Source of the DNA: a virus
Virus record (IMG/VR): IMGVR_UViG_3300010885_053907
Span: 1-20,030 of that record
Strand: one strand, 5' to 3'
Length of the DNA stretch: 20,030 nucleotides
The translations under genes were made by a program, and so were the position numbers. Below the pieces are notes generated by a model. The model was given only the letters and a program-made list of their open reading frames with translations, did no database searches and was not told the DNA's origin. Positions 3,422 through 19,180 of this stretch are shown piece by piece. The first letter of the stretch is position 1. Every line of letters starts with the position of its first letter.

Positions 3422-4063
3422 ATGGCTGTTGTTTATTTACACAAAACTTTGGACACTGATTTAGTTTTTTATATCGGTATTGGTAAAACTAAAAAAAGGG
3501 CATTTAGCAGAAGTACACGAAATATATTATGGTCAAATATAGTTTCTAAACACGATTATATGGTGGAGTTATTATATGAAGACATATCTTGGGAAGAAGC
3601 AAGTATACACGAAAAGAGATTAATTAAAGAGTATGGTCGACGTGATATCGGTACAGGATGTTTAGCTAATATGACTGATGGCGGTGATGGTGCTGCAAAT
3701 TTGTCTGCTGAATCTCGTAAGAAAATATCTGATACATCAACCGGTCGTATTAAGACATTAGAGTGTAGATTAAAGCTAAGCGCTAAAACTAGCGGGGAAA
3801 ATAGTATAATGTATGGTAAGAAAGGGCCATTACATCCTAAATTTGGAAAAAAGTATACATTTTCTGCTGAGCATAGACAAAAACTTTCGAAAGTTAGATT
3901 AGGTAGAAAATATACTGAGGAACATAAACAAGCAATGCGTGTACCAAAAGGCCCTCAAGAAAGTAAAACTTGTCCGCATTGTAATAAGGTAGGGGGCAAT
4001 GCAATGTTGCGTTGGCATTTTGATAATTGTAAAAATAAAAATAAAAATATAAGTTATGAATAA
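3422..4063 (+). CDS. GIY-YIG-type homing endonuclease with NUMOD3 repeats
   Basis: 213 residues. The N-terminus has the GIY-YIG-like pair VYL (4-6) and YIG (17-19), then R and W positions and an E-rich helix (EEASIHEKRLIKEYG). From about residue 95 there are NUMOD3 DNA-binding repeats (SAESRKKISDTSTGR, GKKGPLHPKFGKK, SAEHRQKLSKVRLGRKYTEEH). A C-terminal finger has C184, C187, H199 and C203. This is the architecture of free-standing phage homing endonucleases such as Seg/Mob-type proteins. It overlaps the RNA ligase start by 8 nt and was probably inserted between the small-protein operon and the ligase. Confidence 0.85.
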   Translation: MAVVYLHKTLDTDLVFYIGIGKTKKRAFSRSTRNILWSNIVSKHDYMVELLYEDISWEEASIHEKRLIKEYGRRDIGTGCLANMTDGGDGAANLSAESRKKISDTSTGRIKTLECRLKLSAKTSGENSIMYGKKGPLHPKFGKKYTFSAEHRQKLSKVRLGRKYTEEHKQAMRVPKGPQESKTCPHCNKVGGNAMLRWHFDNCKNKNKNISYE

Positions 4064-5201
4064 ACTCGAGAACGCTAATAGTGTGTGCTTCGTAGCACGA
4101 ATTAATGAAATTAAACCAATACCTGGCGCGGATAATATTGAACAAGCCGTTGTAGGTGGTTGGAATTGTATTATACAAAAAGGACAATATGCTGAGGGCG
4201 GTTTAGTAGTAGTAGCTACTACAGATGCTGTTATACCTCAAGAATTATCAGATAATTTAAACGTAACCAACTACTTACGTAAAGGTGGACGTGTTCGTAC
4301 CGTTAAGTTGCGAGGAGTGTATTCTGAATGCTTAATTATACCATTAAAATATATTCCTAAGGGTAATATTAATTCATATACTGAAGGTAAAGATATGATG
4401 GAGGTAATGAATATCTTTAAATACGAACCACCAGTAAAGCAAATTCAATTAGCGTCAGGTAAAAAAGTTACTTATAGCGAAAATCCTAACTTTTTAATAT
4501 ACTATAAATTTCCAAACTTAAAGAATGTATCTGGAATGTTTACAGAAGAAGATTCAGTTCAAATTACTCGAAAGCTTCATGGAACAAATGCTCGGTATGG
4601 TATAGTATTAAAAACTAAATTATCATTTTGGGATAAAGTAAAGAAATTTCTTTATCTTGCAGATGAATGGATTGATTATGAGTATGTAGTCGGTTCTCAT
4701 AATGTAGAAAAAGGTAGCGATTCTCAAGGATTTTATGATACAAATGTTTGGTATGAAATAGCAAATAAGTATCAAATTAAAGAAAAGCTTTGGAAGTTCG
4801 TTAAAGAAAATTATAGCTCTGAGGAATTAGGGGCTGGATTATCTATGTATGGTGAAATTTACGGAGCTGGTATTCAAAAGAACTATGATTATGGTTTAAA
4901 AAATATTGAGTTTGCAATATTCGATGTTATGTTAAATGGAAAATATTGCCCAGTATTTTATACTAAAGTATTTGCATCTCATGGAGTAGAATTACTTCAC
5001 GTACCGGTATTATATGATGGGGTATGGTCTCAAGAAATTCAGGATAAATATACATTCAATAACTTTATTGAAGGTACTAAAGTTCCGCACGAAGGTATTG
5101 TAATTAAACATATAAATGGCGAAAGAAGTAAAGTAGCTAAAGTAATTAATCCGGATTACTTAATTTACGGAGAGAAGCATAATATAGGAGATAGTCATTA
5201 G
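4056..5201 (+). CDS. RNA ligase, Rnl5/DraRnl-like
   Basis: 381 residues. Motif I is KLHGTN with lysine K173 as the nucleotidyl acceptor. Later motifs: SHNV, YGEIYGAGIQ, IEFAIFDV, EGIVIKHI, and a final VAKVIN near motif V. About 130 residues precede the catalytic core and resemble the N-terminal OB-like module of Deinococcus RnlA (IKPIPGADNIEQAVVGGWNCIIQKG). That family seals nicks with a 3'-OH RNA strand. In the window it joins a P-loop kinase, a cREC protein and many tRNAs, so tRNA or mRNA repair is the likely job. The gene overlaps the homing endonuclease upstream and runs into the T5orf172 gene one base after its stop. Confidence 0.9.
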   Translation: MNKLENANSVCFVARINEIKPIPGADNIEQAVVGGWNCIIQKGQYAEGGLVVVATTDAVIPQELSDNLNVTNYLRKGGRVRTVKLRGVYSECLIIPLKYIPKGNINSYTEGKDMMEVMNIFKYEPPVKQIQLASGKKVTYSENPNFLIYYKFPNLKNVSGMFTEEDSVQITRKLHGTNARYGIVLKTKLSFWDKVKKFLYLADEWIDYEYVVGSHNVEKGSDSQGFYDTNVWYEIANKYQIKEKLWKFVKENYSSEELGAGLSMYGEIYGAGIQKNYDYGLKNIEFAIFDVMLNGKYCPVFYTKVFASHGVELLHVPVLYDGVWSQEIQDKYTFNNFIEGTKVPHEGIVIKHINGERSKVAKVINPDYLIYGEKHNIGDSH

Positions 5202-6933: not shown

Positions 6934-7313
6934 GGGGCTGACAGGAATTGATTGGCAGTTGTAGTTCTTTATGTGATGCAGGTAGAGTTAGTATTGGAAA
7001 CTCTTTAATAACCTATATAGAAAAATAAACGACGAAAAGTCAACTTTTACTTTCGAAGACGCTATGTCTTTCGTAGGTGCAGATTTAGCAGTAGCTGCTT
7101 AATCTCAACGGGCGAAGGAAAAATGCCTAGGAACAGAATCTTCCACCGAGGTGGCTAGTCATTGAACCTAATATCGAATGATACATTGTTTAGCGATTGA
7201 CGATGTTGAAGAACCAATCGAATATTTTGTTAGTTTAGAAAAATTAAATAAACCTGTGAATGAATGTATTGGAGTGCCTGAGCAAGACGAGGGTTCGAAT
7301 CCCTCCAGCTCCA
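6934..7313 (+). ncRNA. ssrA: tmRNA (transfer-messenger RNA)
   Basis: The 5' end GGGGCTGAC and the 3' part CAGCTCC pair as a 7-bp acceptor stem (6934-6940 with 7306-7312) with a G3-U70 wobble, the alanine identity element. The T arm is gaggg/ccctc around TTCGAAT (7289-7305). CCA is not encoded in full (ACCGA). The tag frame contains NDEK directly after the likely resume codon (ATA at 7025) and runs through FEDAMSFV to GADLAVAA and TAA at 7100-7102, about 24-25 codons. The gene is one-piece, not permuted. It would rescue stalled ribosomes during infection. Confidence 0.92.
7025..7102 (+). other. tmRNA tag-peptide reading frame
   Basis: Codons AAC GAC GAA AAG echo the start of the E. coli tag (NDEN). 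The frame then continues for another ~20 codons and ends GCT GCT TAA. Many tags have about ten residues, so this one is long. The end -LAVAA is like the Clp-recognised -ALAA. The resume codon is inferred by analogy; ATA at 7025 is the best candidate. Confidence 0.75.
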
Positions 7314-7323
7314 CCGAGTAAAA

Positions 7324-7335
7324 AGTTCTTTGAAA
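7324..7335 (+). promoter_or_regulatory. boxA-like antitermination site, copy 1
   Basis: AGTTCTTTGAAA resembles boxA of rRNA leaders (consensus near TGYTCTTTAACA; Bacteroidota rRNA leaders carry similar GTTCTTTGA text). The identical 12-mer recurs at 7956-7967, just ahead of the long non-coding RNA. Both copies follow or precede a structured RNA, fitting NusB/S10-type antitermination. Similarity is by eye only. Confidence 0.4.
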
Positions 7336-7347
7336 TATCAGCAAATG
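7328..7347 (+). repeat. Inverted repeat, left arm
   Basis: CTTTGAAATATCAGCAAATG pairs with 7734-7754 over 20 bp with one bulged T and one G-T wobble. It flanks the 7376-7726 gene and overlaps boxA-like copy 1. In RNA it would form a stalk enclosing the gene. Confidence 0.8.
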
Positions 7348-7375
7348 ATTATTTTCATTTAAAATTAAAAAAAAT

Positions 7376-7726
7376 ATGGAAACATTATCATTTGCTTTTG
7401 GAATGCTCGCGATGATTGCTATTATATTAATAGCAATTGTTGTTATAGGTATTGTAAAGGTGTTTAAACAAGATAAAATAAACGTTAATACAAATTCAAC
7501 TATGGACGAAATAAATAGTAGCTTGAATAGACGTATTGATGATATGGATATGAGTTTAGATCGTCGATTCGACGATTTATATCGTGAACTAGAATCTAAA
7601 ATCGAACGCGTGGATTCAGAAATGGATTTAAGAATTAATGAAACAGTTAGTTACATTGATTCGAGAATAGACAAATTACAAAACAATATTAAAGAAAAGG
7701 GGTCAAAGGAGCTCCTTAAAGGTTAA
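7376..7726 (+). CDS. Membrane-anchored coiled-coil protein
   Basis: 116 residues. One membrane helix at about residues 7-29 (FGMLAMIAIILIAIVVIGIV), then a polar stretch and a long amphipathic region (about 40-105) with repeating RRIDDMD / RRFDDLYRELESKIERVD text, typical of a coiled coil. No enzyme motif. Topology is probably N-out/C-in, with the coil in the cytoplasm. The gene sits alone inside a long inverted repeat between the tmRNA and the large non-coding region. Partner unknown; a scaffold or spanin-like role is only speculation. Confidence 0.65.
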   Translation: METLSFAFGMLAMIAIILIAIVVIGIVKVFKQDKINVNTNSTMDEINSSLNRRIDDMDMSLDRRFDDLYRELESKIERVDSEMDLRINETVSYIDSRIDKLQNNIKEKGSKELLKG

Positions 7727-7733
7727 TAAATAA

Positions 7734-7754
7734 CATTTTGCTGGTATTTCAAAG
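7734..7754 (+). repeat. Inverted repeat, right arm
   Basis: CATTTTGCTGGTATTTCAAAG is the partner of 7328-7347. It is followed by TCTTTTTATTT, so the stalk could also end transcription. No target-site duplication is seen outside the arms, which argues against a simple transposon. Confidence 0.8.
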
Positions 7755-7800
7755 TCTTTTTATTTAAAAATGAATAATTTATAAGATTTTTTAAAAAAGA

Positions 7801-7832
7801 TTTGGTATTTCGAGATATTTATCTTATATTTA
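7801..7832 (+). promoter_or_regulatory. Phage promoter, first of a tandem pair
   Basis: TTTG 7801-7804 and TATATTTA 7825-7832, 20 nt apart, followed by AGTATATTA. It lies about 95 nt upstream of a near-copy at 7895-7926. Both drive towards the large non-coding region. Confidence 0.7.
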
Positions 7833-7894
7833 AGTATATTAAAAAATAAGAAATAAGTAAGAAAATAAAAAATCTTTAAAAAAATAAAAAAAAG

Positions 7895-7926
7895 GTTGTT
7901 TATTTGAAATATTTATATTATATTTA
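7895..7926 (+). promoter_or_regulatory. Phage promoter, second of a tandem pair
   Basis: TTG 7896-7898 and TATATTTA 7919-7926, 20 nt apart, followed by the same AGTATATTA as the first promoter. Doubling of the promoter suggests strong expression of the RNA downstream. Confidence 0.7.
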
Positions 7927-7955
7927 AGTATATTAGAAATTAAGAAAAAAAGATT

Positions 7956-7967
7956 AGTTCTTTGAAA
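7956..7967 (+). promoter_or_regulatory. boxA-like antitermination site, copy 2
   Basis: AGTTCTTTGAAA is identical to copy 1 at 7324. It lies about 30 nt after the second -7 box, that is, within the 5' leader, where boxA sits in rRNA operons. Confidence 0.4.
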
Positions 7968-7968
7968 A

Positions 7969-8860
7969 TATTATTATCCATTCGATTATGTGCTAAGAGC
8001 TTCGGCTCGACCCAATAATTGATAAATGATAATCGGCGGCATATAGTCGTTAAATAAACTATGAAAGTAGTATAAAGTGAATTGGTTTGACTGAACCAGT
8101 TTGCGGCTTCGAAAGAAGCTTAAGTATGCAAGTGAGATATCATTGGACCTTTAGTATCGAGGGTAACACTGTAGAGAAAGTGGTTTGATGACTGGCCTAT
8201 GTGGGTAGGTTGGTTGAGTTCGGAAGAGCAATAAAAATAACTCATAGAATATTTGCAAAAAGTATATTTATCCAAGTATATTATTGCGTTATTCAATATA
8301 AGAGAAATCTTAAAATCGAAAGATATGTAGATGTACAGGTGGTGCTGTTATTTACCTTATTTATAATCTACCAAGATTATTTATTCGAAGAATTCTTAAA
8401 ATATGAGAATGGGGACATTCTAGAGAGTAGTTAAGTATCTACCCTAACAAAATTGGGGCTGGCTTATTGACAGGCCACTACTTTCAATCATCCACAAGTC
8501 ACAAACTTATTTGCATTATGATTGCAAAATCTAAAAATAAATAAGCATAAGTGCTTGTCAGCTACGGACGAAAGATGCCTACATAGTAATGAGTTGTTCA
8601 TTGCCACTAAAGGTCGCAAGCCAATAGTGATTTTACGGAAAAGTTTATAGCCTCGCAAGGGTTAATCAGGTCGGCAGATTTGAATAGATAGAGTAAATAG
8701 AGAGTAGTCCAAATAAATGTAGCTCAAAGAGTGGTTCACTTAAATAACCGGCATTGCTAAGATAGGTTTCAAAAGAATCTGGACAAATTGGGAAACAAAA
8801 TAATCCAATAAAAGATTTAGCATTAAAAGGTATAGTCTCAGCCTTATTTAAAATAAAAAA
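7969..8860 (+). ncRNA. Candidate large structured non-coding RNA (~0.9 kb)
   Basis: About 890 nt with no credible gene between tandem promoters and a tRNA. Hairpins read by eye: CGATTAT/ATAATCG (7983-7989 with 8029-8035) enclosing GAGC-UUCG-GCUC (7997-8008); an 8-bp stem 8080-8087/8094-8101; GCTTC-GAAA-GAAGC (8106-8119, GNRA loop); a 10-bp stem 8191-8200/8205-8214; CTTATTT/AAATAAG (8506-8512 with 8539-8545); CACTA/TAGTG near 8615. Known ornate RNAs of phages (GOLLD, ROOL) have this size and sit beside tRNA genes. I cannot match their consensus from memory. A new class is equally possible. About 8230-8430 is AT-rich and may be a variable insert. Confidence 0.55.
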
Positions 8861-8862
8861 TG

Positions 8863-8934
8863 GCGGGTGGCGCGGTTGGATCGCGAAGAGTCTCATAAGC
8901 TCTTATAAACCAGGATCGATACCTGGACGTCGCA
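8863..8934 (+). tRNA. tRNA with CAT anticodon (Met or Ile2), weak acceptor stem
   Basis: T arm ccagg/cctgg around ATCGATA (8910-8926), D stem CGCG/CGCG (8871-8874 with 8882-8885), anticodon stem agagt/gctct around CTCATAA (CAT 8894-8896). The acceptor pairs only with one bulge (8863-8868 with 8927-8933). It lies directly 3' of the large non-coding RNA. Initiator, elongator and lysidine-Ile types cannot be told apart here. Confidence 0.65.
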
Positions 8935-8950
8935 ACGAATTTAACATTTT

Positions 8951-8971
8951 CCGGTAATAAAACTTAACCGG
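8951..8971 (+). other. Hairpin overlapping a GGAGG
   Basis: CCGGT (8951-8955) pairs with ACCGG (8967-8971). Its 3' arm runs into GGAGG (8970-8974), 15 nt upstream of the ATG at 8990, so the stem could mask that purine site if it is used at all. Confidence 0.4.
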
Positions 8972-8989
8972 AGGCATATTTATTAATAT

Positions 8990-9112
8990 ATGAAACTTAG
9001 AAACATACATACAACATCATTACAAGGGTTTAAATATCCTGTTAGCGGCCAAGCTTCTTGGTCGATGATTAATGATGCTGAATATGTACATAATCGAGGA
9101 ATTCATATATAA
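8990..9112 (+). CDS. Small 40-residue hypothetical protein
   Basis: ATG 8990 to TAA 9110-9112. The peptide begins MKLRNIHTTSLQGFKYPVSG and contains ASWSMINDAEYVHNRG. Start context ATATATG is like the neighbouring genes, and a strong terminator follows 41 nt later, which supports it as a real transcription unit. There is no recognised family. Short length keeps confidence low. Confidence 0.4.
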   Translation: MKLRNIHTTSLQGFKYPVSGQASWSMINDAEYVHNRGIHI

Positions 9113-9152
9113 GAAAATAAAACAAAATTAATTTTTTTACATATTAATATTT

Positions 9153-9182
9153 AAACCTCGGACATTAAATCCGGGGTTTTTT
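9153..9182 (+). terminator. Intrinsic terminator
   Basis: AACCTCGGA (9154-9162) and TCCGGGGTT (9170-9178) form a 9-bp stem with a 7-nt loop, followed by TTTTTT. It ends the transcript carrying the large RNA, the CAT tRNA and the 40-residue gene. Confidence 0.9.
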
Positions 9183-9230
9183 ATTGTATATGGGGGTTAA
9201 AGTTAATCGTATACGAGCTTTAATTAGTAT

Positions 9231-9322
9231 TTAGATATAATATACCTAAAAGAAATAAAGAGCTTATATGAGCCTTTAAAATGCTTTATATAAGTAATTG
9301 ATTTATAATTAGATATAATATA
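9231..9322 (+). repeat. Direct repeat TTAGATATAATATA, two copies
   Basis: The same 14-mer occurs at 9231-9244 and 9309-9322, 78 nt apart, in an otherwise gene-free AT-rich gap between the terminator and the tRNA promoter. Each holds TATAAT. It could be a binding site or a second promoter type; no function is shown. Confidence 0.5.
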
Positions 9323-9353
9323 TTGAAAATCAAATAGAAAAAATTAAATAAGA

Positions 9354-9385
9354 TTAGGATAATTGAAATGTTTTCCTTATCTTTA
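9354..9385 (+). promoter_or_regulatory. Phage promoter for the first tRNA operon
   Basis: TTAG 9354-9357 and TATCTTTA 9378-9385, 20 nt apart, followed by TGTATA. The first tRNA starts 20 nt downstream. Confidence 0.75.
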
Positions 9386-9405
9386 TGTATAGGAAATTAA
9401 TTAAT

Positions 9406-9478
9406 GGGGTAGTAGCAAAGATGGTATATGCGCTGGTCTGAAAAATCAGAGATATTGGATCGTTACCAATCTACCTCA
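9406..9478 (+). tRNA. tRNA-Phe (GAA)
   Basis: Acceptor GGGGTAG with CTACCTC, T arm attgg/ccaat, anticodon loop CTGAAAA (GAA). All four arms are present. CCA is not encoded. Confidence 0.9.
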
Positions 9479-9488
9479 CAAAAAATAT

Positions 9489-9559
9489 ACGGATATGGTG
9501 CAATGGTAGCATACGGGTCTCCAAAACCTTTGATCTAAGTTCGAATCTTAGTATCCGTG
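9489..9559 (+). tRNA. tRNA-Trp (CCA)
   Basis: Acceptor ACGGATA with TATCCGT, T arm ctaag/cttag around TTCGAAT, anticodon loop CTCCAAA (CCA). Discriminator G. Confidence 0.9.
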
Positions 9560-9566
9560 CAATTAT

Positions 9567-9638
9567 TGTGATGTAACTCAGAGGAAGAGTGTTTGCCTGT
9601 TAAGCAAAGAGCCGAGATTTCGAAATTCTCCATCACAG
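9567..9638 (+). tRNA. tRNA-Asn (GTT)
   Basis: Acceptor TGTGATG with CATCACA (perfect), anticodon stem TTTGC/GCAAA around CTGTTAA (GTT). The T stem has one T-T mismatch. Discriminator G. Confidence 0.9.
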
Positions 9639-9649
9639 CAAATAAATAA

Positions 9650-9721
9650 GGGACGACGCCCAGGGTTGGTCAGACGGTCTGTAAAACCGAACTGCATAGT
9701 GCTCGAGTCACTTCCGTCCCA
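9650..9721 (+). tRNA. tRNA-Tyr (GTA)
   Basis: Acceptor GGGACG- with -CGTCCC (six pairs, seventh A-C), anticodon loop CTGTAAA (GTA), T loop CTCGAGT with a 4-bp stem. The variable region is short, unlike the long arm of most bacterial tRNA-Tyr. Confidence 0.8.
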
Positions 9722-9758
9722 CAGAAAATTAAAATAAAATGAAACGAAAACGTTAGAA

Positions 9759-9789
9759 GTGCATTGCTATATCAGAGTATAGAGTGCAC
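9759..9789 (+). other. Hairpin spacer between tRNA-Tyr and tRNA-Lys
   Basis: GTGCA (9759-9763) pairs with TGCAC (9785-9789) and CTATA (9767-9771) with TATAG (9778-9782), separated by a small internal loop and capped by TCAGAG. It may be a processing signal or a small stable RNA. Confidence 0.5.
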
Positions 9790-9803
9790 GAATTAAAAAA
9801 TAT

Positions 9804-9891
9804 GCACCTATGGCTCAATTGGTAGAGCAACTGGCTTTTAACCAGTGGGGTAGACGTAAGTCCGTTGAGGGTTCGAGTCCCTCTGGGTGCA
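9804..9891 (+). tRNA. tRNA-Lys (TTT) with an extra GNRA hairpin in the variable region
   Basis: Acceptor GCACCTA with TGGGTGC, anticodon stem ACTGG/CCAGT around CTTTTAA (TTT), T arm gaggg/ccctc. The variable region is 20 nt (9847-9866) instead of about five and contains GAC-GTAA-GTC, a short stem with a GNRA loop. Class I tRNA-Lys normally lacks such an arm. Confidence 0.85.
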
Positions 9892-9919
9892 CAAGTTTAT
9901 TTATTGATTTTTAACATAT

Positions 9920-9988
9920 TGTGCCAGATCAAGCCTCTTGCGAAAGTAACGTAATCTGCCTCCGTAACCGAAAGGGTACGCCGGAGGA
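9920..9988 (+). ncRNA. Structured inter-tRNA RNA with two GNRA-capped stems
   Basis: CAGAT (9925-9929) pairs with ATCTG (9954-9958) and encloses CTT-GCGA-AAG (9937-9946). Next, CCTCCG (9959-9964) pairs with CGGAGG (9982-9987) and encloses CC-GAAA-GG. The two domains abut. It is not a tRNA: there is no anticodon or T arm. A riboswitch or stable small RNA is possible, but I match no known class. Confidence 0.6.
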
Positions 9989-9993
9989 AATTA

Positions 9994-10066
9994 GGTCTAT
10001 AGGTCAAACGGTTAAGATATCTCCCTGTCACGGAGTATGGAACGGGTTCAACTCCCGTATAGACCG
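9994..10066 (+). tRNA. tRNA-Asp (GTC)
   Basis: Acceptor GGTCTAT with ATAGACC (perfect), anticodon loop CTGTCAC (GTC), T arm acggg/cccgt around TTCAACT. Discriminator G. Confidence 0.92.
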
Positions 10067-10077
10067 CTAAAAAATAT

Positions 10078-10134
10078 AGCGTAGTAGCCTAATGGTTGAG
10101 GCACTTCATTGACTAAGATGTATTCGGTTCGATA
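10078..10134 (+). pseudogene. Interrupted tRNA-Val-like gene (GAC), 5' part only
   Basis: 5' acceptor AGCGTAG, D arm GCC-taatggttga-GGC, anticodon loop TTGACTA (GAC at 10111-10113) with a weak stem, then TTCGG and a T loop TTCGATA. The 3' T-stem and acceptor partners (expected CCGAA and CTACGCT) are absent; AT-rich sequence and the ATG of the homing endonuclease follow 22 nt later. The 3' part is not found after the endonuclease either. Confidence 0.65.
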
Positions 10135-10155
10135 TATTTATAATAAAGAACCTTT

Positions 10156-10815
10156 ATGAATAAATGTAAAAAATGTAATTTAGAATTTCATCCTGTTAAA
10201 GGATTAATAAATTATTGCTCTTTGAAATGTAGAAATAGTAGAATATTTACAGAAAATTCTTGTAAATTAAAATCTGATGCAAATCTAGGAAAAGTATCAT
10301 CTGATTTTACGAAAATAAAAAGACAAAAAACTAATATAGAAAGATACGGTGTATATCATCATAATTATAAAGGAGATGCTGCTTTTGAAAATAGAATATG
10401 TAAGGTATGTAATATATTATTTAAGATAAGAATTTCCTCACCTAAGAAAACGTGTTCTAGGATATGCAGAATTACTGCTAGCACGTCTCGTACTTATAGA
10501 AACGGTAGTAGAAAGACTATTTACTATAATGGTATTATTTTAGAGTCTAGTTGGGAATTAGAAATAGCACAACTATTAGACTTATTACAAATAGAATGGG
10601 TACGTCCTAAACCTATGAAATGGTTTGATAGTTCAAGTAAGGAACATTTATATTATCCGGATTTTTATTTGCCTAAATATAATATATATCTAGATCCAAA
10701 AAATCCATATTGTATGGAAAGGGATAAAGAAAAAATGGAATATATAGGACGATATATTAAATTAATATACGGTCCATTAGATTTTATTAAACAATATATC
10801 TCGAGTATGGTGTAA
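10156..10815 (+). CDS. Zinc-finger PD-(D/E)XK homing endonuclease
   Basis: 219 residues. Two cysteine fingers: C4, C7, C21, C25 and C82, C85, C100, C104. The nuclease core follows: ESSWELEIAQLL (130-141, with the early glutamate), YYPDFYLP with D169, and LDPK with D180 and K182. This fits PD-(D/E)XK homing enzymes such as I-Ssp6803I, which targets a tRNA gene in cyanobacteria. It lies inside the tRNA array, right after a broken tRNA-Val-like gene, and its last codons overlap tRNA-Pro by 16 nt. It probably entered by homing into a tRNA gene. Codon use is AT-rich like that of its neighbours. Confidence 0.8.
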   Translation: MNKCKKCNLEFHPVKGLINYCSLKCRNSRIFTENSCKLKSDANLGKVSSDFTKIKRQKTNIERYGVYHHNYKGDAAFENRICKVCNILFKIRISSPKKTCSRICRITASTSRTYRNGSRKTIYYNGIILESSWELEIAQLLDLLQIEWVRPKPMKWFDSSSKEHLYYPDFYLPKYNIYLDPKNPYCMERDKEKMEYIGRYIKLIYGPLDFIKQYISSMV

Positions 10816-10873
10816 TCAGTGTAACACACTAAGTTTGGGACTTAGAGATGCAGTTCGAATCTGATACTTGAGA
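10800..10873 (+). tRNA. tRNA-Pro (TGG)
   Basis: Acceptor CTCGAGT with ACTTGAG, anticodon stem CTAAG/CTTAG around TTTGGGA (TGG, G37). The T stem has one or two mismatches. Its first 16 nt are also the end of the homing endonuclease gene, so ribosomes could reach the tRNA sequence. Confidence 0.85.
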
Positions 10874-10878
10874 CAAAT

Positions 10879-10924
10879 GGCCAAATACCTGAGTAAATAT
10901 CATATGAAATAGTATGAGGTGGCC
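10879..10924 (+). other. Hairpin spacer between tRNA-Pro and tRNA-Gly
   Basis: GGCC/GGCC, ACCT/AGGT and CATA/TATG stack as an interrupted stem over 10879-10924, with an 8-nt loop. It fills nearly the whole spacer. Confidence 0.5.
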
Positions 10925-10931
10925 GCCAATT

Positions 10932-11003
10932 GCATCACTAGCTCCAATGTAGAGCGCTTCCTTGCCAAGGAAGAGGTTATCAGTTCAAGTCTGATGTGGT
11001 GCT
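10932..11003 (+). tRNA. tRNA-Gly (GCC)
   Basis: Acceptor GCATCAC with GTGGTGC, anticodon stem CTTCC/GGAAG around TTGCCAA (GCC), T arm atcag/ctgat. Confidence 0.92.
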
Positions 11004-11014
11004 CTAAAATATAT

Positions 11015-11087
11015 GGGGCTATGGTATAGATGGCGAACACAGTAGCTTTGCAAGCTTCAGTCCCGAGTTCAAACCTCGGTAGCTCCA
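11015..11087 (+). tRNA. tRNA-Ala (TGC)
   Basis: Acceptor GGGGCTA with TAGCTCC including G3-U70, the alanine identity pair. Anticodon loop TTTGCAA (TGC), T arm ccgag/ctcgg. Confidence 0.92.
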
Positions 11088-11094
11088 CAAAAAT

Positions 11095-11168
11095 GGCGAG
11101 TTGGTAGAGTTGGTTTCTTACGGAGCTCTCATAAGGCTTAGACATAGGTTCGAATCCTATACTCGCTA
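11095..11168 (+). tRNA. tRNA-Met (CAT)
   Basis: Acceptor GGCGAGT with ACTCGCT (first pair G-U), anticodon stem gagct/ggctt around CTCATAA, T arm atagg/cctat. It is the second CAT tRNA of the window. One of the two may be an Ile2 or initiator type. Confidence 0.85.
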
Positions 11169-11170
11169 CG

Positions 11171-11227
11171 ATAAAGCAAATTTTGCATGATAAACCAATT
11201 ATCTTTATTATGCAAAAACTGCTTTAT
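11171..11227 (+). terminator. Long 22-bp hairpin closing the first tRNA operon
   Basis: ATAAAGCA (11171-11178) pairs with TGCTTTAT (11220-11227), and a 14-bp inner stem (11181-11194 with 11204-11217) follows after a 2-by-2 internal loop. The apical loop is 9 nt. There is no proper T run, so it may be an RNase III-type processing stem or attenuator rather than a standard terminator. A promoter follows 26 nt later. Confidence 0.6.
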
Positions 11228-11252
11228 TAAGATTAAAAAACTTAAAAAAAGA

Positions 11253-11284
11253 TTAGGAAATATGAATTGTTTTCTTTATCTTTA
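11253..11284 (+). promoter_or_regulatory. Phage promoter for the second tRNA operon
   Basis: TTAG 11253-11256 and TATCTTTA 11277-11284, 20 nt apart, then AGTATATTA. tRNA-Gly(TCC) starts 18 nt after the -7 box. Confidence 0.75.
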
Positions 11285-11301
11285 AGTATATTAAAAAATA
11301 A

Positions 11302-11373
11302 GCATCATTAGCTCAGAGGCAGAGCGGGGGTTTTCCAAACCTCAGGCCGAGATTTCAAAATTCTCATGGTGCT
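11302..11373 (+). tRNA. tRNA-Gly (TCC)
   Basis: Acceptor GCATCAT with ATGGTGC, anticodon stem ggggt/acctc around TTTCCAA (TCC). The T stem has one mismatch. Confidence 0.88.
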
Positions 11374-11376
11374 CGC

Positions 11377-11466
11377 ATTTATGAATAAGTTAGCAGCCTA
11401 AACAATGACGGAAGGCTGTAAGCTGTGAAGCTTTGGAGGCGCGAATAATAGTAACGCCTCCTAAAT
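11377..11466 (+). ncRNA. Structured inter-tRNA RNA, three-hairpin domain
   Basis: Closed by ATTTA (11377-11381) with TAAAT (11462-11466). Inside: CAGCCT/AGGCTG (11394-11399 with 11413-11418), AAGCT-GTGA-AGCTT (11420-11433, GNRA loop) and GGAGGCG/CGCCTCC (11435-11441 with 11455-11461). It has the size of a tRNA but no anticodon arm or T loop. Confidence 0.6.
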
Positions 11467-11471
11467 TAAAT

Positions 11472-11542
11472 TCTCGTTTCGTCTAACGGCAGGACAAATG
11501 GTTTTGAGCCATTGAATCGAGGTTCAAATCCTTGAGCGAGAA
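11472..11542 (+). tRNA. tRNA-Gln (TTG)
   Basis: Acceptor TCTCGTT with AGCGAGA, anticodon stem AATGG/CCATT around TTTTGAG (TTG), T arm cgagg/ccttg. Confidence 0.9.
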
Positions 11543-11550
11543 CATAAAAT

Positions 11551-11624
11551 GCTGCTATGGCGCAATTGGTTGGCGCAGGATGCTTATACCATCAAGGTTA
11601 TGGGTTCAAGTCCCGTTAGCAGTA
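11551..11624 (+). tRNA. tRNA-Ile (TAT)
   Basis: Acceptor GCTGCTA with TAGCAGT, anticodon loop CTTATAC (TAT at 34-36), T arm atggg/cccgt. A UAU anticodon reads AUA directly; most bacteria use a lysidine-modified CAU tRNA instead. Confidence 0.85.
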
Positions 11625-11634
11625 CAAAATTAAT

Positions 11635-11708
11635 GTTCCGTTGGACAAATTGGTTAAGTCACCTCCCTTTCAAGGAGGAGATTGCGAGTTCAAATCTCGT
11701 ACGGAATA
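11635..11708 (+). tRNA. tRNA-Glu (TTC)
   Basis: Acceptor GTTCCGT with ACGGAAT, anticodon stem CCTCC/GGAGG around CTTTCAA (TTC), T arm gcgag/ctcgt. Confidence 0.92.
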
Positions 11709-11711
11709 CAA

Positions 11712-11760
11712 AGTCTTAGGAGTAATTACCTTAAGAGCTCGCAGGTTCGAAACTGCAGAA
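11712..11760 (+). other. tRNA-like remnant with a T arm
   Basis: A hairpin near 11715-11733 (CTTAGG with CCTTAAG) is followed by GCAG-gttcgaaa-CTGC (from 11741), which looks like a T arm. No D arm or acceptor closure is found. It may be a decayed tRNA or a spacer hairpin that happens to resemble one. Confidence 0.35.
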
Positions 11761-11850
11761 TGATTATGGTGTATGGGGCACAGTAGAACGAGTATAGGTT
11801 TGGAACCTAAAAAGGGAAGCAGGATTAAGGTTCAATTCCTTTTTAATCAG
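11761..11850 (+). tRNA. Atypical tRNA-like gene (TGG read in the anticodon loop)
   Basis: Acceptor TGATTA with TAATCA, D stem GTG/CAC, T arm (t)aagg/cctt around TTCAATT. The anticodon stem TAGG/CCTA encloses TTTGGAA, giving TGG, but A37 after G36 is unusual for proline. About 11 extra nt lie between D and anticodon stems, and the variable region is about 15 nt. It may be a degenerate, suppressor-like or misread serine (GGA) tRNA. Identity is unresolved. Confidence 0.5.
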
Positions 11851-11862
11851 CAACAAAAATAT

Positions 11863-11935
11863 GTCGATGTGGATGAATGGTTTAGTCACCAACCTGATAA
11901 GTTGGGCAATGTGAGTTCAAATCTCACCATCGATA
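11863..11935 (+). tRNA. tRNA-Ile (GAT)
   Basis: Acceptor GTCGATG with CATCGAT, anticodon stem CCAAC/GTTGG around CTGATAA (GAT), T arm gtgag/ctcac. Confidence 0.92.
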
Positions 11936-11943
11936 CAATAAAA

Positions 11944-12015
11944 GCTCGATTAGTTTAATTGGTAAAACTCTTGTCTTGTAAACAAGGGTCATCGGATCGT
12001 AACCGGTATTGAGCT
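11944..12015 (+). tRNA. tRNA-Thr (TGT)
   Basis: Acceptor GCTCGAT with ATTGAGC, anticodon stem CTTGT/ACAAG around CTTGTAA (TGT), T arm atcgg/ccggt. Confidence 0.9.
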
Positions 12016-12019
12016 CGAT

Positions 12020-12094
12020 AAACTTATATCCTACATTGATTATTAGTGGCTAGCTAAAGGGGGTCTTAACGTATTGCAAGTCGTTAGTAAGTTT
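12020..12094 (+). ncRNA. Structured inter-tRNA RNA, closed by a 7-bp stem
   Basis: AAACTTA (12020-12026) pairs with TAAGTTT (12088-12094). Inside, TAACG (12067-12071) pairs with CGTTA (12082-12086). It fills the spacer between tRNA-Thr and tRNA-Val. Confidence 0.55.
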
Positions 12095-12098
12095 AAAT

Positions 12099-12174
12099 AG
12101 TTACTTCGCTTAGTTGGTTTTAAAGCATCACTCTTACAAAGTGAAGATCATGTGTTCGAATCACATAGTGACTA
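12099..12174 (+). tRNA. tRNA-Val (TAC)
   Basis: Acceptor AGTTACT with AGTGACT, anticodon stem TCACT/AGTGA around CTTACAA (TAC), T arm atgtg/cacat. Confidence 0.92.
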
Positions 12175-12178
12175 CAAT

Positions 12179-12278
12179 ATATATAACTCAGGCTGTGAAA
12201 CAGTGTGATGGTCGACGACGTAAGTAATACACTTAAAGACCGTGGCTCGTATGAGGAAGAATGTCGTATGTTATATAT
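12179..12278 (+). ncRNA. Structured inter-tRNA RNA, closed by a 9-bp stem
   Basis: ATATATAAC (12179-12187) pairs with GTTATATAT (12270-12278). Inside are CTGT-gaa-ACAG and GGTC/GACC stems. It fills the spacer between tRNA-Val and tRNA-Ser. No tRNA arms are present. Confidence 0.55.
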
Positions 12279-12282
12279 TAAT

Positions 12283-12366
12283 GGAGAGTGTCCGGCTGGC
12301 GCGAGGAACTTGTCTTGAAAACAAGCGGGTGTAAAAGCTTCCGGGGTTCGAGTCCCTGACTCTCCG
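12283..12366 (+). tRNA. tRNA-Ser (TGA)
   Basis: Acceptor GGAGAGT with ACTCTCC, anticodon stem CTTGT/ACAAG around CTTGAAA (TGA), long class II variable arm, T arm cgggg/ccctg. Discriminator G, as serine requires. Confidence 0.92.
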
Positions 12367-12371
12367 CAATT

Positions 12372-12444
12372 GGGCGTGTGTCTGAGTGGTTTAGGTGCCG
12401 ATCTGCAAAATCGTGTTACATTGGTTCAAATCCAATCGCGCCCT
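12372..12444 (+). tRNA. tRNA-Cys (GCA)
   Basis: Acceptor GGGCGTG with CGCGCCC, anticodon loop CTGCAAA (GCA), T arm attgg/ccaat. Discriminator T, typical of tRNA-Cys. Confidence 0.92.
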
Positions 12445-12471
12445 CAAAGTAAGGAAGTAGTAAATTAAGTG

Positions 12472-12523
12472 GTGGCGAGATGCTTAATGATGTGAAACTT
12501 AGACCCTTATGAAGTCTTGCCAC
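12472..12523 (+). ncRNA. Hairpin domain between tRNA-Cys and tRNA-Ser
   Basis: GTGGCGAGA (12472-12480) pairs with TCTTGCCAC (12515-12523): 9 bp with one G-U, enclosing 34 nt. It ends three bases before the next tRNA. Confidence 0.55.
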
Positions 12524-12526
12524 AAT

Positions 12527-12612
12527 GGAGAGTAAAGCAACTAGGATGTTGTCACCGCCTGCTAAGCGAGTGGTTCAGTAAAACGGATTTGTTTCGATTA
12601 CAATGCTCTCCG
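12527..12612 (+). tRNA. tRNA-Ser (GCT)
   Basis: Acceptor GGAGAGT with GCTCTCC, anticodon loop CTGCTAA (GCT), class II variable region, T arm TTGT/ACAA around TTCGATT. Discriminator G. The acceptor is shared with tRNA-Ser(TGA). Confidence 0.85.
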
Positions 12613-12620
12613 CAAAAAAT

Positions 12621-12704
12621 GCTCCGATGGTGGAATTGGTAGACACGCAGGACTTAAAATCCTGTCCCCGAAAGGGGGTGCAAGTTCGATTCTTGTTCGG
12701 AGCA
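12621..12704 (+). tRNA. tRNA-Leu (TAA), normal form
   Basis: Acceptor GCTCCGA with TCGGAGC, anticodon stem CAGGA/TCCTG around CTTAAAA (TAA), variable arm CCCC-gaaa-GGGG, T arm gcaag/cttgt. A canonical partner to the enlarged tRNA-Leu(TAA) at 1886. Confidence 0.93.
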
Positions 12705-12725
12705 CAATGAGTAAGAGGTACTCAG

Positions 12726-12891
12726 AGTCTTTAATCTAAGACTTAAACAATAGATAGGGTATTGGACCGGACATCCTTAAACGCCGGCCTCGTGGGAATA
12801 AAGCTGGAAAATCATCCTTGCTCCCAGTAATGGTTGAAGTTTTCAAGGTGTAAGAACCACAGGGTTACAAATAGGAAACCGGAAATATCTA
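12726..12891 (+). ncRNA. Structured inter-tRNA RNA, multibranch (~165 nt)
   Basis: A hairpin AGTCTT/AAGACT (12726-12731 with 12738-12743) is followed by a domain closed by TAGATA (12751-12756) with TATCTA (12886-12891). Inside: GG(a)CCGG/CCGGCC (12764-12770 with 12784-12789), TGGGA/TCCCA (12793-12797 with 12822-12826) and TTGAA/TTCAA (12834-12838 with 12842-12846). No tRNA, RNase P or other known RNA is recognised. Confidence 0.6.
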
Positions 12892-12921
12892 CTTACTTAT
12901 AATCTCAGAGTAGGGAATTAT

Positions 12922-13008
12922 GCCCCAATGATGGAATGGTAGTCATGCCCGCCTTAGAAGCGGGTGCGAAGTAATAGTAGCGTGAGAGTTCAAATCTCTC
13001 TTGGGGTA
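12922..13008 (+). tRNA. tRNA-Leu (TAG)
   Basis: Acceptor GCCCCAA with TTGGGGT, anticodon stem CCCGC/GCGGG around CTTAGAA (TAG), class II variable arm TGCG/GCGT, T arm gagag/ctctc. Confidence 0.92.
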
Positions 13009-13010
13009 CG

Positions 13011-13210
13011 AAATAAGTGAGTCTATCGCTGGAAACAGAGGAAGTTCGCGACTGCAAAACCTACTGCAGGAGATGTTGATTAAATTCCATCGTTATAACC
13101 GCACAAGCAGCAACACAAACAGATCTAGAGTGTCGGTTTCTTAATAATGATCGGGTTGTGGCAAAGATAAATGATAGAAGAGATACAAAATCGCGGCTAT
13201 TAACTTATTT
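13011..13210 (+). ncRNA. Structured inter-tRNA RNA (~200 nt), closed by an 8-bp stem
   Basis: AAATAAGT (13011-13018) pairs with ACTTATTT (13203-13210) and encloses 184 nt, in which CTGCA/TGCAG is one internal hairpin (about 13056-13072). It fills the whole spacer between tRNA-Leu and tRNA-Arg. It holds no open frame of note and no tRNA arms. Confidence 0.55.
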
Positions 13211-13215
13211 AAATT

Positions 13216-13288
13216 AATCCTATGGTGCAACGGAATAGCATACGCCCCTTCTAAGGGTTTGATACAAGTTTGAATCTTGTTAGGATTA
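13216..13288 (+). tRNA. tRNA-Arg (TCT)
   Basis: Acceptor AATCCTA with TAGGATT (perfect), anticodon loop CTTCTAA (TCT), T arm acaag/cttgt. Confidence 0.9.
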
Positions 13289-13305
13289 CAACTTAAAACC
13301 GATTC

Positions 13306-13398
13306 GGGTTAAAGAATAAGAGGGAACCTGCGACTATGTATCGTAAGATAAATTAGACAAAACTTTACCCTTCACATTAGGTGTTATCGGTGACCTAA
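13306..13398 (+). ncRNA. Structured inter-tRNA RNA, two stems
   Basis: GGGTTAAAG (13306-13314) pairs with CTTTACCC (13363-13370) with one bulged T, followed by TTAGGT (13377-13382) with ACCTAA (13393-13398), loop 10 nt. It fills the spacer between two tRNA-Arg genes. Confidence 0.55.
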
Positions 13399-13404
13399 TA
13401 ATTT

Positions 13405-13477
13405 GCTTTCTTAGCTCAATGGATTAGAGCACTCGGCTACGGACCGAGAGATAGGAGTTCGAATCTCTTAGAGAGCA
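13405..13477 (+). tRNA. tRNA-Arg (ACG)
   Basis: Acceptor GCTTTCT with AGAGAGC, anticodon stem CTCGG/CCGAG around CTACGGA (ACG; A34 is normally edited to inosine by host TadA), T arm aggag/ctctt. Confidence 0.92.
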
Positions 13478-13495
13478 CATTAAGTTGATTAACAT

Positions 13496-13570
13496 GGTGT
13501 TTATAGTGTTAGCGGTTAGCACGTATGTTTGTGGTACATAAAGCGATCGGTTCGAATCCGACTAAACACA
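13496..13570 (+). tRNA. tRNA-His (GTG)
   Basis: Acceptor GTGTTTA with TAAACAC (perfect), with an extra G at -1 (13496) as tRNA-His needs. Anticodon stem TATGT/ACATA around TTGTGGT (GTG). Last tRNA of the array. Confidence 0.92.
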
Positions 13571-13603
13571 CTATAACAATAATTATAAGAAAGGAGATCG
13601 GTT

Positions 13604-18190: not shown

Positions 18191-18212
18191 GCCCATACGT
18201 TGGGCTTTTTTT
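18189..18212 (+). terminator. Intrinsic terminator overlapping a stop codon
   Basis: AAGCCCA (18189-18195) pairs with TGGGCTT (18201-18207), loop TACGT, then seven T. The first two A are the end of the TAA stop of the upstream gene. Confidence 0.92.
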
Positions 18213-18223
18213 ATGTAAATAAA

Positions 18224-18255
18224 TTAGGTTTTTTGAATTGTTTTCCTTATCTTTA
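18224..18255 (+). promoter_or_regulatory. Phage promoter, TTAG-N20-TATCTTTA
   Basis: TTAG 18224-18227 and TATCTTTA 18248-18255, 20 nt apart. Only TGAT separates the box from ATG 18260, so the message is probably leaderless. Confidence 0.8.
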
Positions 18256-18259
18256 TGAT

Positions 18260-19180
18260 ATGATAAGAAATTTAGGTTATGCATGTATTAATACTACTTT
18301 ACAAAAAAGTAAGATTACTACTAATCGAGGTATGAAACAAGCTACGTTTAAGGCTAAAGGCCTTCCGTATGCGTCTGAACTAGCATTAAAAAATGTTATT
18401 GATTTAGAAAAAGTTATTCATTGGAATGAAGCTAATGACATTAAATTTTTTCGTATTAGCAGCGACATTTTTCCGTGGTGTAGTGAGTATGAATTTAATC
18501 AATTACCAGACTTTCCGCAGATTAAAGAAGTTATGGAGCGCATTGGTAAGTATATACGCCTTCATAGACACCGAATAACCGCTCATCCTGGCCCTTTTAA
18601 TTTATTAGCATCACCTAATGAAGCTGTAATTAAAAAGACTCTTATTGAGCTTGAAAATCACTCCAAAGTATTTGATTTATTAGACTTATCTGATTCTCCA
18701 TATAACAAGATTAATATACATATAGGAGCTACGTATAACAATAAAGAAGTTGCAGCGCAGACTTGGGTAAAGAATGAAAAGCGTTTAAGTATGCATACTA
18801 GATCTCGATTAACAGTAGAAAATGATGATAAAGCATCTATGTTTTCTGTTAAAGATTTATATGATATGGTTTATTCTGAATGCGGAGTCCCTATTGTATT
18901 TGATTATCATCATCATCAATTTTGTACAGGCGGTTTATCCGAATTCGATGCTCTTAAATTAGCTTCTAGCACATGGCCATTAGATGTAATTCCAGCAACT
19001 CATTATTCTGAAAGTAAATCATTACATTTAAATGACCTGAAAATTAAACTGCAAGCTCATAGTGATTTAATTAATGGCCCTATTAATTGTCATGACTTAA
19101 ACATTGATGTTATGATTGAAGCTAAGTCTAAAGAGTTAGCATTATTAGAATTTAGAAAAAAATATTTTATAAAAGATTAG
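18260..19180 (+). CDS. uvsE: UV-damage endonuclease (UvdE/UVDE family)
   Basis: 306 residues from ATG 18260. The family begins near MIRLGYACIN, as here (MIRNLGYACINTTLQ). A start at 18200 would translate the promoter and is rejected. Motifs along the TIM barrel: FFRISSDIFPW, RLHRHRITAHPGPFNLL, INIHIGATYNNKE, RLTVENDD, VFDYHHHQF and ATHYSES: the histidines, glutamate and aspartates bind the metals. The enzyme nicks 5' of UV photoproducts to start repair. Length is close to the family norm. It is a single-gene unit with its own promoter. Confidence 0.93.
   Translation: MIRNLGYACINTTLQKSKITTNRGMKQATFKAKGLPYASELALKNVIDLEKVIHWNEANDIKFFRISSDIFPWCSEYEFNQLPDFPQIKEVMERIGKYIRLHRHRITAHPGPFNLLASPNEAVIKKTLIELENHSKVFDLLDLSDSPYNKINIHIGATYNNKEVAAQTWVKNEKRLSMHTRSRLTVENDDKASMFSVKDLYDMVYSECGVPIVFDYHHHQFCTGGLSEFDALKLASSTWPLDVIPATHYSESKSLHLNDLKIKLQAHSDLINGPINCHDLNIDVMIEAKSKELALLEFRKKYFIKD

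Follow-up and report, generated by a model that had tools for sequence, protein, structure and literature searches.

A full-length GOLLD RNA in a tRNA-rich viral sequence, bordered by tandem promoters, a boxA-like leader site and a tRNA-like element

GOLLD RNAs have been described as the association of a conserved 3' region with a less conserved 5' region (PMC12286853). The GOLLD of env-38 forms, at nanomolar concentration, RNA-only 14-mers arranged as a hollow cage, in which a contact between L20 and J13/15 joins different chains, as seen by cryo-EM; GOLLD expression rises at lysis and ribosomes are bound by GOLLD in pull-downs (PMC12286853). The sequence analyzed here, a 20-kb IMG/VR virus record of 20,030 nucleotides hereafter referred to as the window, had received an initial annotation in which a long structured RNA at 7969-8860 was read as a GOLLD, a ROOL or a third class. 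It contains 24 tRNAs and a tmRNA, and thus has a genomic setting characteristic of GOLLD, in a phage or prophage and close to tRNA genes.

Identity and extent of the RNA

Comparison of the whole window with 4227 Rfam families (cmscan) revealed a GOLLD match (RF02032) at 8423-8844 on the + strand, with 250.6 bits (E 1.4e-70) for a gathering cut-off of 150 bits, and spanning positions 1-416 of the 416 of the model, i.e. its full length. Besides GOLLD, only the tmRNA and tRNAs passed the gathering score, and neither ROOL nor OLE matched at this score anywhere in the window. ROOL, OLE and a new class were rejected on this basis, and the affiliation of the RNA to the known GOLLD class is settled.

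The nearest named relatives of the window, identified by blastn, are two uncultured huge phages, LR756502 (642 kb; 86% of the query covered, 65% identity) and LR745206 (635 kb; 35% covered, 71% identity), Acinetobacter phages giving a short match. GOLLD was above the cut-off in all three loci examined (the two huge phages and an Acinetobacter phage), with 275 and 287 bits in the huge phages, which share the same 5' domain. A motif scan of IMG/VR retrieved 61 loci and a second scan many more. The nhmmer profile built on the 5' half of the window and of the two huge phages matched more than 50 other viral-contig loci, including almost all of the 61 loci with enough upstream sequence. As this 5' half is found together with GOLLD 3' domains in nearly all of these loci, the 5' domain belongs to the same RNA, whose real extent is about 7986-8845 (~0.86 kb), close to the range initially annotated.

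This co-occurrence also bears on the proposal that the RNA represents a third class of giant ornate RNA, distinct from both GOLLD and ROOL. Such a class could be advocated from the fact that RF02032 models the 3' domain of GOLLD only, leaving the 5' half without any Rfam model, and from the absence of a consensus recognizable by eye. With a 3' half matching the full GOLLD model far above the cut-off, a 5' half travelling with GOLLD 3' domains and a published GOLLD that already includes a less conserved 5' region, it is now hardly credible.

The features defining the RNA are the following:
7986..8422, + strand, GOLLD 5' domain (nhmmer profile matches, covariation), called cap domain by analogy with env-38
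8423..8845, + strand, GOLLD 3' domain (RF02032 match, covariation), called ring domain by analogy with env-38
7997..8008, + strand, hairpin GAGC-UUCG-GCUC of the leader, at the 5' border of the GOLLD RNA (folding)

Covariation and the inter-chain contact

The alignment comprised 38 distinct full-length homologues sharing less than 95% identity with each other and 62-94% with the window. The four ORFs lying inside the GOLLD region are interrupted by in-frame stops in 27-33 of them, which led us to reject a protein-coding reading and agrees with the absence of credible gene noted initially. The covariance-model and homologue searches suggested by the initial annotation thus gave a full-length GOLLD and homologues with covarying stems and no codon-like conservation.

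The consensus fold of these homologues includes 226 pairs, with 96.2% of the cells paired and 154 pairs showing two-sided changes. When partners were slid by 1-3 columns, 38-42% of the cells were paired and 57-84 pairs had two-sided changes, an excess of the real fold that is partly due to the derivation of the consensus structure from the same alignment; shuffled controls reached 79% and at most 132 pairs. Two-sided changes and contacts outside the nested structure are therefore stronger evidence than the pairing excess. The support for the 5' domain (121 pairs, 96.6% paired, 86 with two-sided changes) equals that for the 3' domain (102 pairs, 95.9%, 68). The window sequence alone is also more stable than its shuffles, with a minimum free energy of -211.2 vs -185.7 +/- 7.1 kcal/mol (z -3.6). 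The strong hairpins reported earlier were all located, namely the UUCG hairpin, the 10-bp stem (8191-8200/8205-8214) and the GNRA-type loops, among which GAAA at 8063-8066 and GGAA at 8222-8225 are invariant in the 38 homologues and the loop at 8318-8321 is GAAA in 37 of 38.

Three contacts outside the nested structure covary, all of them in the 3' domain, which also holds a variable linker:
8471-8474/8554-8557, + strand, long-range 4-bp helix (covarying: CGGA/UCCG, UAAG/CUUA, CAGA/UCUG, others)
8575-8579/8750-8754, + strand, long-range 5-bp pseudoknot helix (covarying: GUGAC/GUCAC, AUGCC/GGCAU, GUGUC/GACAC, others)
8545..8546, + strand, J13/15 linker side of a probable inter-chain kissing contact (covariation; assigned by position)
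8616..8617, + strand, L20 loop side of the same probable contact (covariation; assigned by position)
8486..8544, + strand, A/U-rich variable linker, poorly conserved in the alignment

The 2-bp contact 8545-8546/8616-8617 covaries in 38/38 homologues (GC/GC in 20, GG/CC in 16, UC/GA in 2) and, according to its position, is probably the L20-J13/15 kissing contact, bridge B7 of the env-38 GOLLD. The candidate L21a dinucleotide of bridge B8 (8654-8655) is CG in 35 homologues, GU in 2 and UA in 1; it could pair with itself and varies little. By analogy with env-38 (PMC12286853), the variable linker would occupy the place of the disordered interior linker. Cage assembly in this group is supported by the covariation of the two domains and of the contact expected between chains, and, from the literature, it is very likely that the GOLLD of this phage forms cages, these being proven for the env-38 GOLLD only.

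A decayed, non-functional relic is very improbable since pairing is maintained throughout the molecule, the tertiary and quaternary contacts are intact and the promoter block described below is conserved as far as loci L047 and L060. We consider with high confidence that the region encodes a complete, functional two-domain GOLLD of the cage type.

Promoters, boxA leader and 3' boundary

The elements flanking the RNA are the following:
7801-7832 and 7895-7926 (block 7793..7950), + strand, two putative Bacteroidota-type promoters, TTG-N20-TATATTTA (repeat, pattern match)
7957..7967, + strand, boxA-like antitermination site GTTCTTTGAAA in the leader, its core conserved across GOLLD loci
8860..8934, + strand, degenerate tRNA-like element with anticodon CAT (ARAGORN; same position in many relatives)

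The tandem promoters and the boxA-like site of the initial annotation were both retrieved just upstream of the GOLLD. The former correspond to a 64-nt direct repeat (7793-7856 and 7887-7950), 81% identical and with copies 94 nt apart, each carrying TTG-N20-TATATTTA, the Bacteroidota promoter form. A sigma-70 assignment was dropped in favour of this pattern, as a sigma-70 promoter scan gave no excess over shuffles (8 found vs 8.9 expected). The Bacteroidota pattern alone is not rare in this AT-rich window (5 on the + strand vs 2.2 expected), and for this reason the promoter case rests on the duplicated block and on the position relative to boxA elsewhere: a promoter of this type lies 110 nt or less upstream of boxA in 39/54 loci, vs 5.8% at random positions. 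In L047, the sequence further upstream of the conserved block differs.

A related motif, TATCTTTAAGTATATTA, recurs at positions 1498, 5757, 7825, 7919, 11277 and 15033 of the window, before genes and a tRNA, its copies being preceded by TTG, TTTGG or TTAGG about 20-24 nt upstream. With 10 matches at up to 3 mismatches in the window vs 1.6 expected, it is probably a phage-wide promoter element.

Of 58 dereplicated GOLLD loci with at least 1 kb upstream, 54 have the boxA core TTCTTT[GA]A at a distance of 600-1000 nt from the downstream 3' motif, in most cases 700-800 nt, for about 5 of 58 expected from a background of 0.093 per 400 nt. Its usual position is just before the GOLLD 5' domain. The core is missing in 4/58 loci, and GOLLDs located within tRNA arrays (L002 and the Acinetobacter phage L004) have no boxA immediately upstream. 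The boxA preceding GOLLD is identical to that preceding 23S rRNA in Bacteroidota. In the fetched bacterial loci, mostly of Bacteroidota, GTTCTTTGACATATTG occurs 51-403 nt before the 23S rRNA start at about 49/121 sites, as counted with a loose 23S rRNA regular expression whose false positives may reach a few percent by hand estimate, and before 16S rRNA at 0/86 sites. Moreover, the G/A variant of the GOLLD-leader boxA, present with A as GTTCTTTAAA in other GOLLD loci, equals a published functional boxA, GTTCTTTAAAA, which raised the transcription of a synthetic CRISPR array about tenfold (PMC7862264).

The proximity of TTCTTTGA to GOLLD and to the promoters in nearly all loci could alternatively mean that it belongs to the GOLLD fold or is a phage-specific promoter element, instead of a Nus-recruiting boxA. 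We regard this as unlikely given, in addition to the identity with the Bacteroidota 23S rRNA boxA and the match of its G/A variant to GTTCTTTAAAA, that its spacing from the first GOLLD stems is variable, by tens of bases, and that its location after the promoters makes it part of the transcribed leader. An rRNA-like antitermination through this boxA is thus probable, as judged from sequence. The promoter and boxA types both support the initial suggestion of a Bacteroidota phage, and Bacteroidota are most likely its hosts. In L017, L020, L023, L046, L065 and relatives, a small hairpin, TCGGAAACGTCCGA, lies between promoter and boxA, at the place that a boxB would take.

On the other side of the RNA, the initial annotation had placed its end at a tRNA. 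An element does start at 8860, 14-15 nt after the GOLLD 3' end, and folds into a cloverleaf-like structure, but it is degenerate, with an irregular acceptor stem, and is absent from the Rfam tRNA hits of the window at the gathering cut-off. Among 56 distinct loci, a CAT tRNA is present 5-40 nt after GOLLD in 11 and another tRNA in 2, while 3 have a tRNA-like element with a CTCATAA anticodon loop, 3 a shorter hairpin (five in a 37-locus set) and 29 a T-run with no tRNA. A strict scan for the 3' motif (AAAGGTGTAATCTCAGCC) found nothing.

GOLLD is known near tRNA islands, and the tRNA following it could be a mere neighbour from such an island, without any role in 3'-end formation. The loci with a T-run and no tRNA are compatible with this explanation, to which we attribute somewhat less than an even chance. 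Against it, the tRNA located 5-40 nt after GOLLD is the sole one detectable in the fetched stretch of 8 loci, the anticodon is CAT in 11 of the 13 ARAGORN tRNAs found right after GOLLD vs 27/163 of all tRNAs of these loci, and some of these elements are too degenerate for ARAGORN, yet keep their position. We propose that the tRNA-like element at 8860 is a 3'-processing signal.

In L005, L012, L025, L028, L029 and L064, a conserved hairpin, CGCAA...AGAGG-TTCGTTT-CCTCT-A-TTGCG, is found just 3' of GOLLD, in tRNA-rich phages. It resembles a minihelix made of a tRNA acceptor and T-arm and is perhaps a reduced RNase P substrate, with a loop devoid of the canonical T-loop A.

The GOLLD gene is embedded in a region (window 6934-13571) grouping the tmRNA (tag DEKSTFTFEDAMSFVGADLAVAA) and the 24 tRNAs, which cover nearly all amino acids. 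This array is interrupted by a putative endonuclease gene (10156-10815), and a second tandem pair of AT-rich repeats (TTAGATATAATATA; 9220-9251 and 9298-9329), preceded by a terminator-like hairpin (9153-9179), lies before the tRNA-Phe group. Upstream of the array are encoded an RNA ligase (phrog_968; 4056-5201) and an ATPase/kinase similar to polynucleotide kinase (876-1268), a pair fitting the expectation for phage tRNA repair. A UV-damage endonuclease (UVDE)-like protein (18200-19180) is 45% identical to one of the huge phage LR756502.

Proposed expression and comparison with known systems

From these elements, the host RNA polymerase would start at the tandem promoters and the boxA of the nascent leader would recruit NusB/S10, turning the polymerase Rho-resistant as on rRNA operons, which would allow the 0.86-kb untranslated RNA to be completed; transcription possibly runs on into the tRNA array. 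The RNA would fold into its 5' cap and 3' ring domains and self-assemble into a hollow 14-mer cage similar to that of env-38, through contacts such as 8545-8546/8616-8617. A cut by RNase P before the tRNA-like element would set the GOLLD 3' end, a step for which we see even odds and which would be dispensable in loci with a terminator. Late in infection, the cage might sequester ribosomes, tRNAs or the linker, any specific cargo being doubtful.

Overall, we suggest, with a probability of about 0.55, that GOLLD genes in Bacteroidota phages have the layout of a small rRNA operon. A Bacteroidota promoter would be followed by a boxA ensuring Nus-dependent antitermination, then by the giant untranslated RNA, whose 3' end would be formed by RNase P where a dedicated CAT tRNA-like element, often degenerate, is present, or else by a terminator; the phage would thereby borrow the host rRNA transcription mode to mass-produce the cage RNA. 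In the searched library, which lacks many subscription papers and did not return the 2009 GOLLD description, no paper linking GOLLD RNA with boxA was found, and these two features of GOLLD genes, the boxA of the leader and the tRNA-like 3' boundary, are possibly unreported.

The homologues gathered here add to GOLLD a set of full-length members whose phages probably infect Bacteroidota, and the two domains of these RNAs covary strongly. With a boxA in the leader and a tRNA-like element or a terminator at the 3' boundary, the completion and trimming of a long untranslated phage RNA receive an explanation open to testing, and the boundaries found indicate which transcript should be cloned for structural studies.

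The env-38 GOLLD (PMC12286853) and that of the window share the sequence and structure of the 3' domain over the full model, a separate 5' domain, an internal variable linker, a length of ~860 nt, a contact at the L20-J13/15 position, a GAAA loop, a tRNA neighbourhood and a phage origin. They differ by the tandem Bacteroidota promoters and rRNA-type boxA leader present here, in a probable Bacteroidota phage, and by their tRNA context, since the env-38 GOLLD is described downstream of a Met-tRNA whereas a degenerate CAT tRNA-like element lies directly 3' in the window. ROOL has the same scale and the same association with phages and tRNAs, and is also an RNA-only cage, formed by an 8-mer; its sequence and secondary structure are distinct from those of GOLLD (PMC12286853), in line with the lack of Rfam ROOL match in the window. 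The order of promoter, boxA and long untranslated RNA is shared with the boxA leaders of rRNA operons and CRISPR arrays, the boxA itself having the same sequence as the one that precedes Bacteroidota 23S rRNA, but here this boxA would lead a phage cage RNA.
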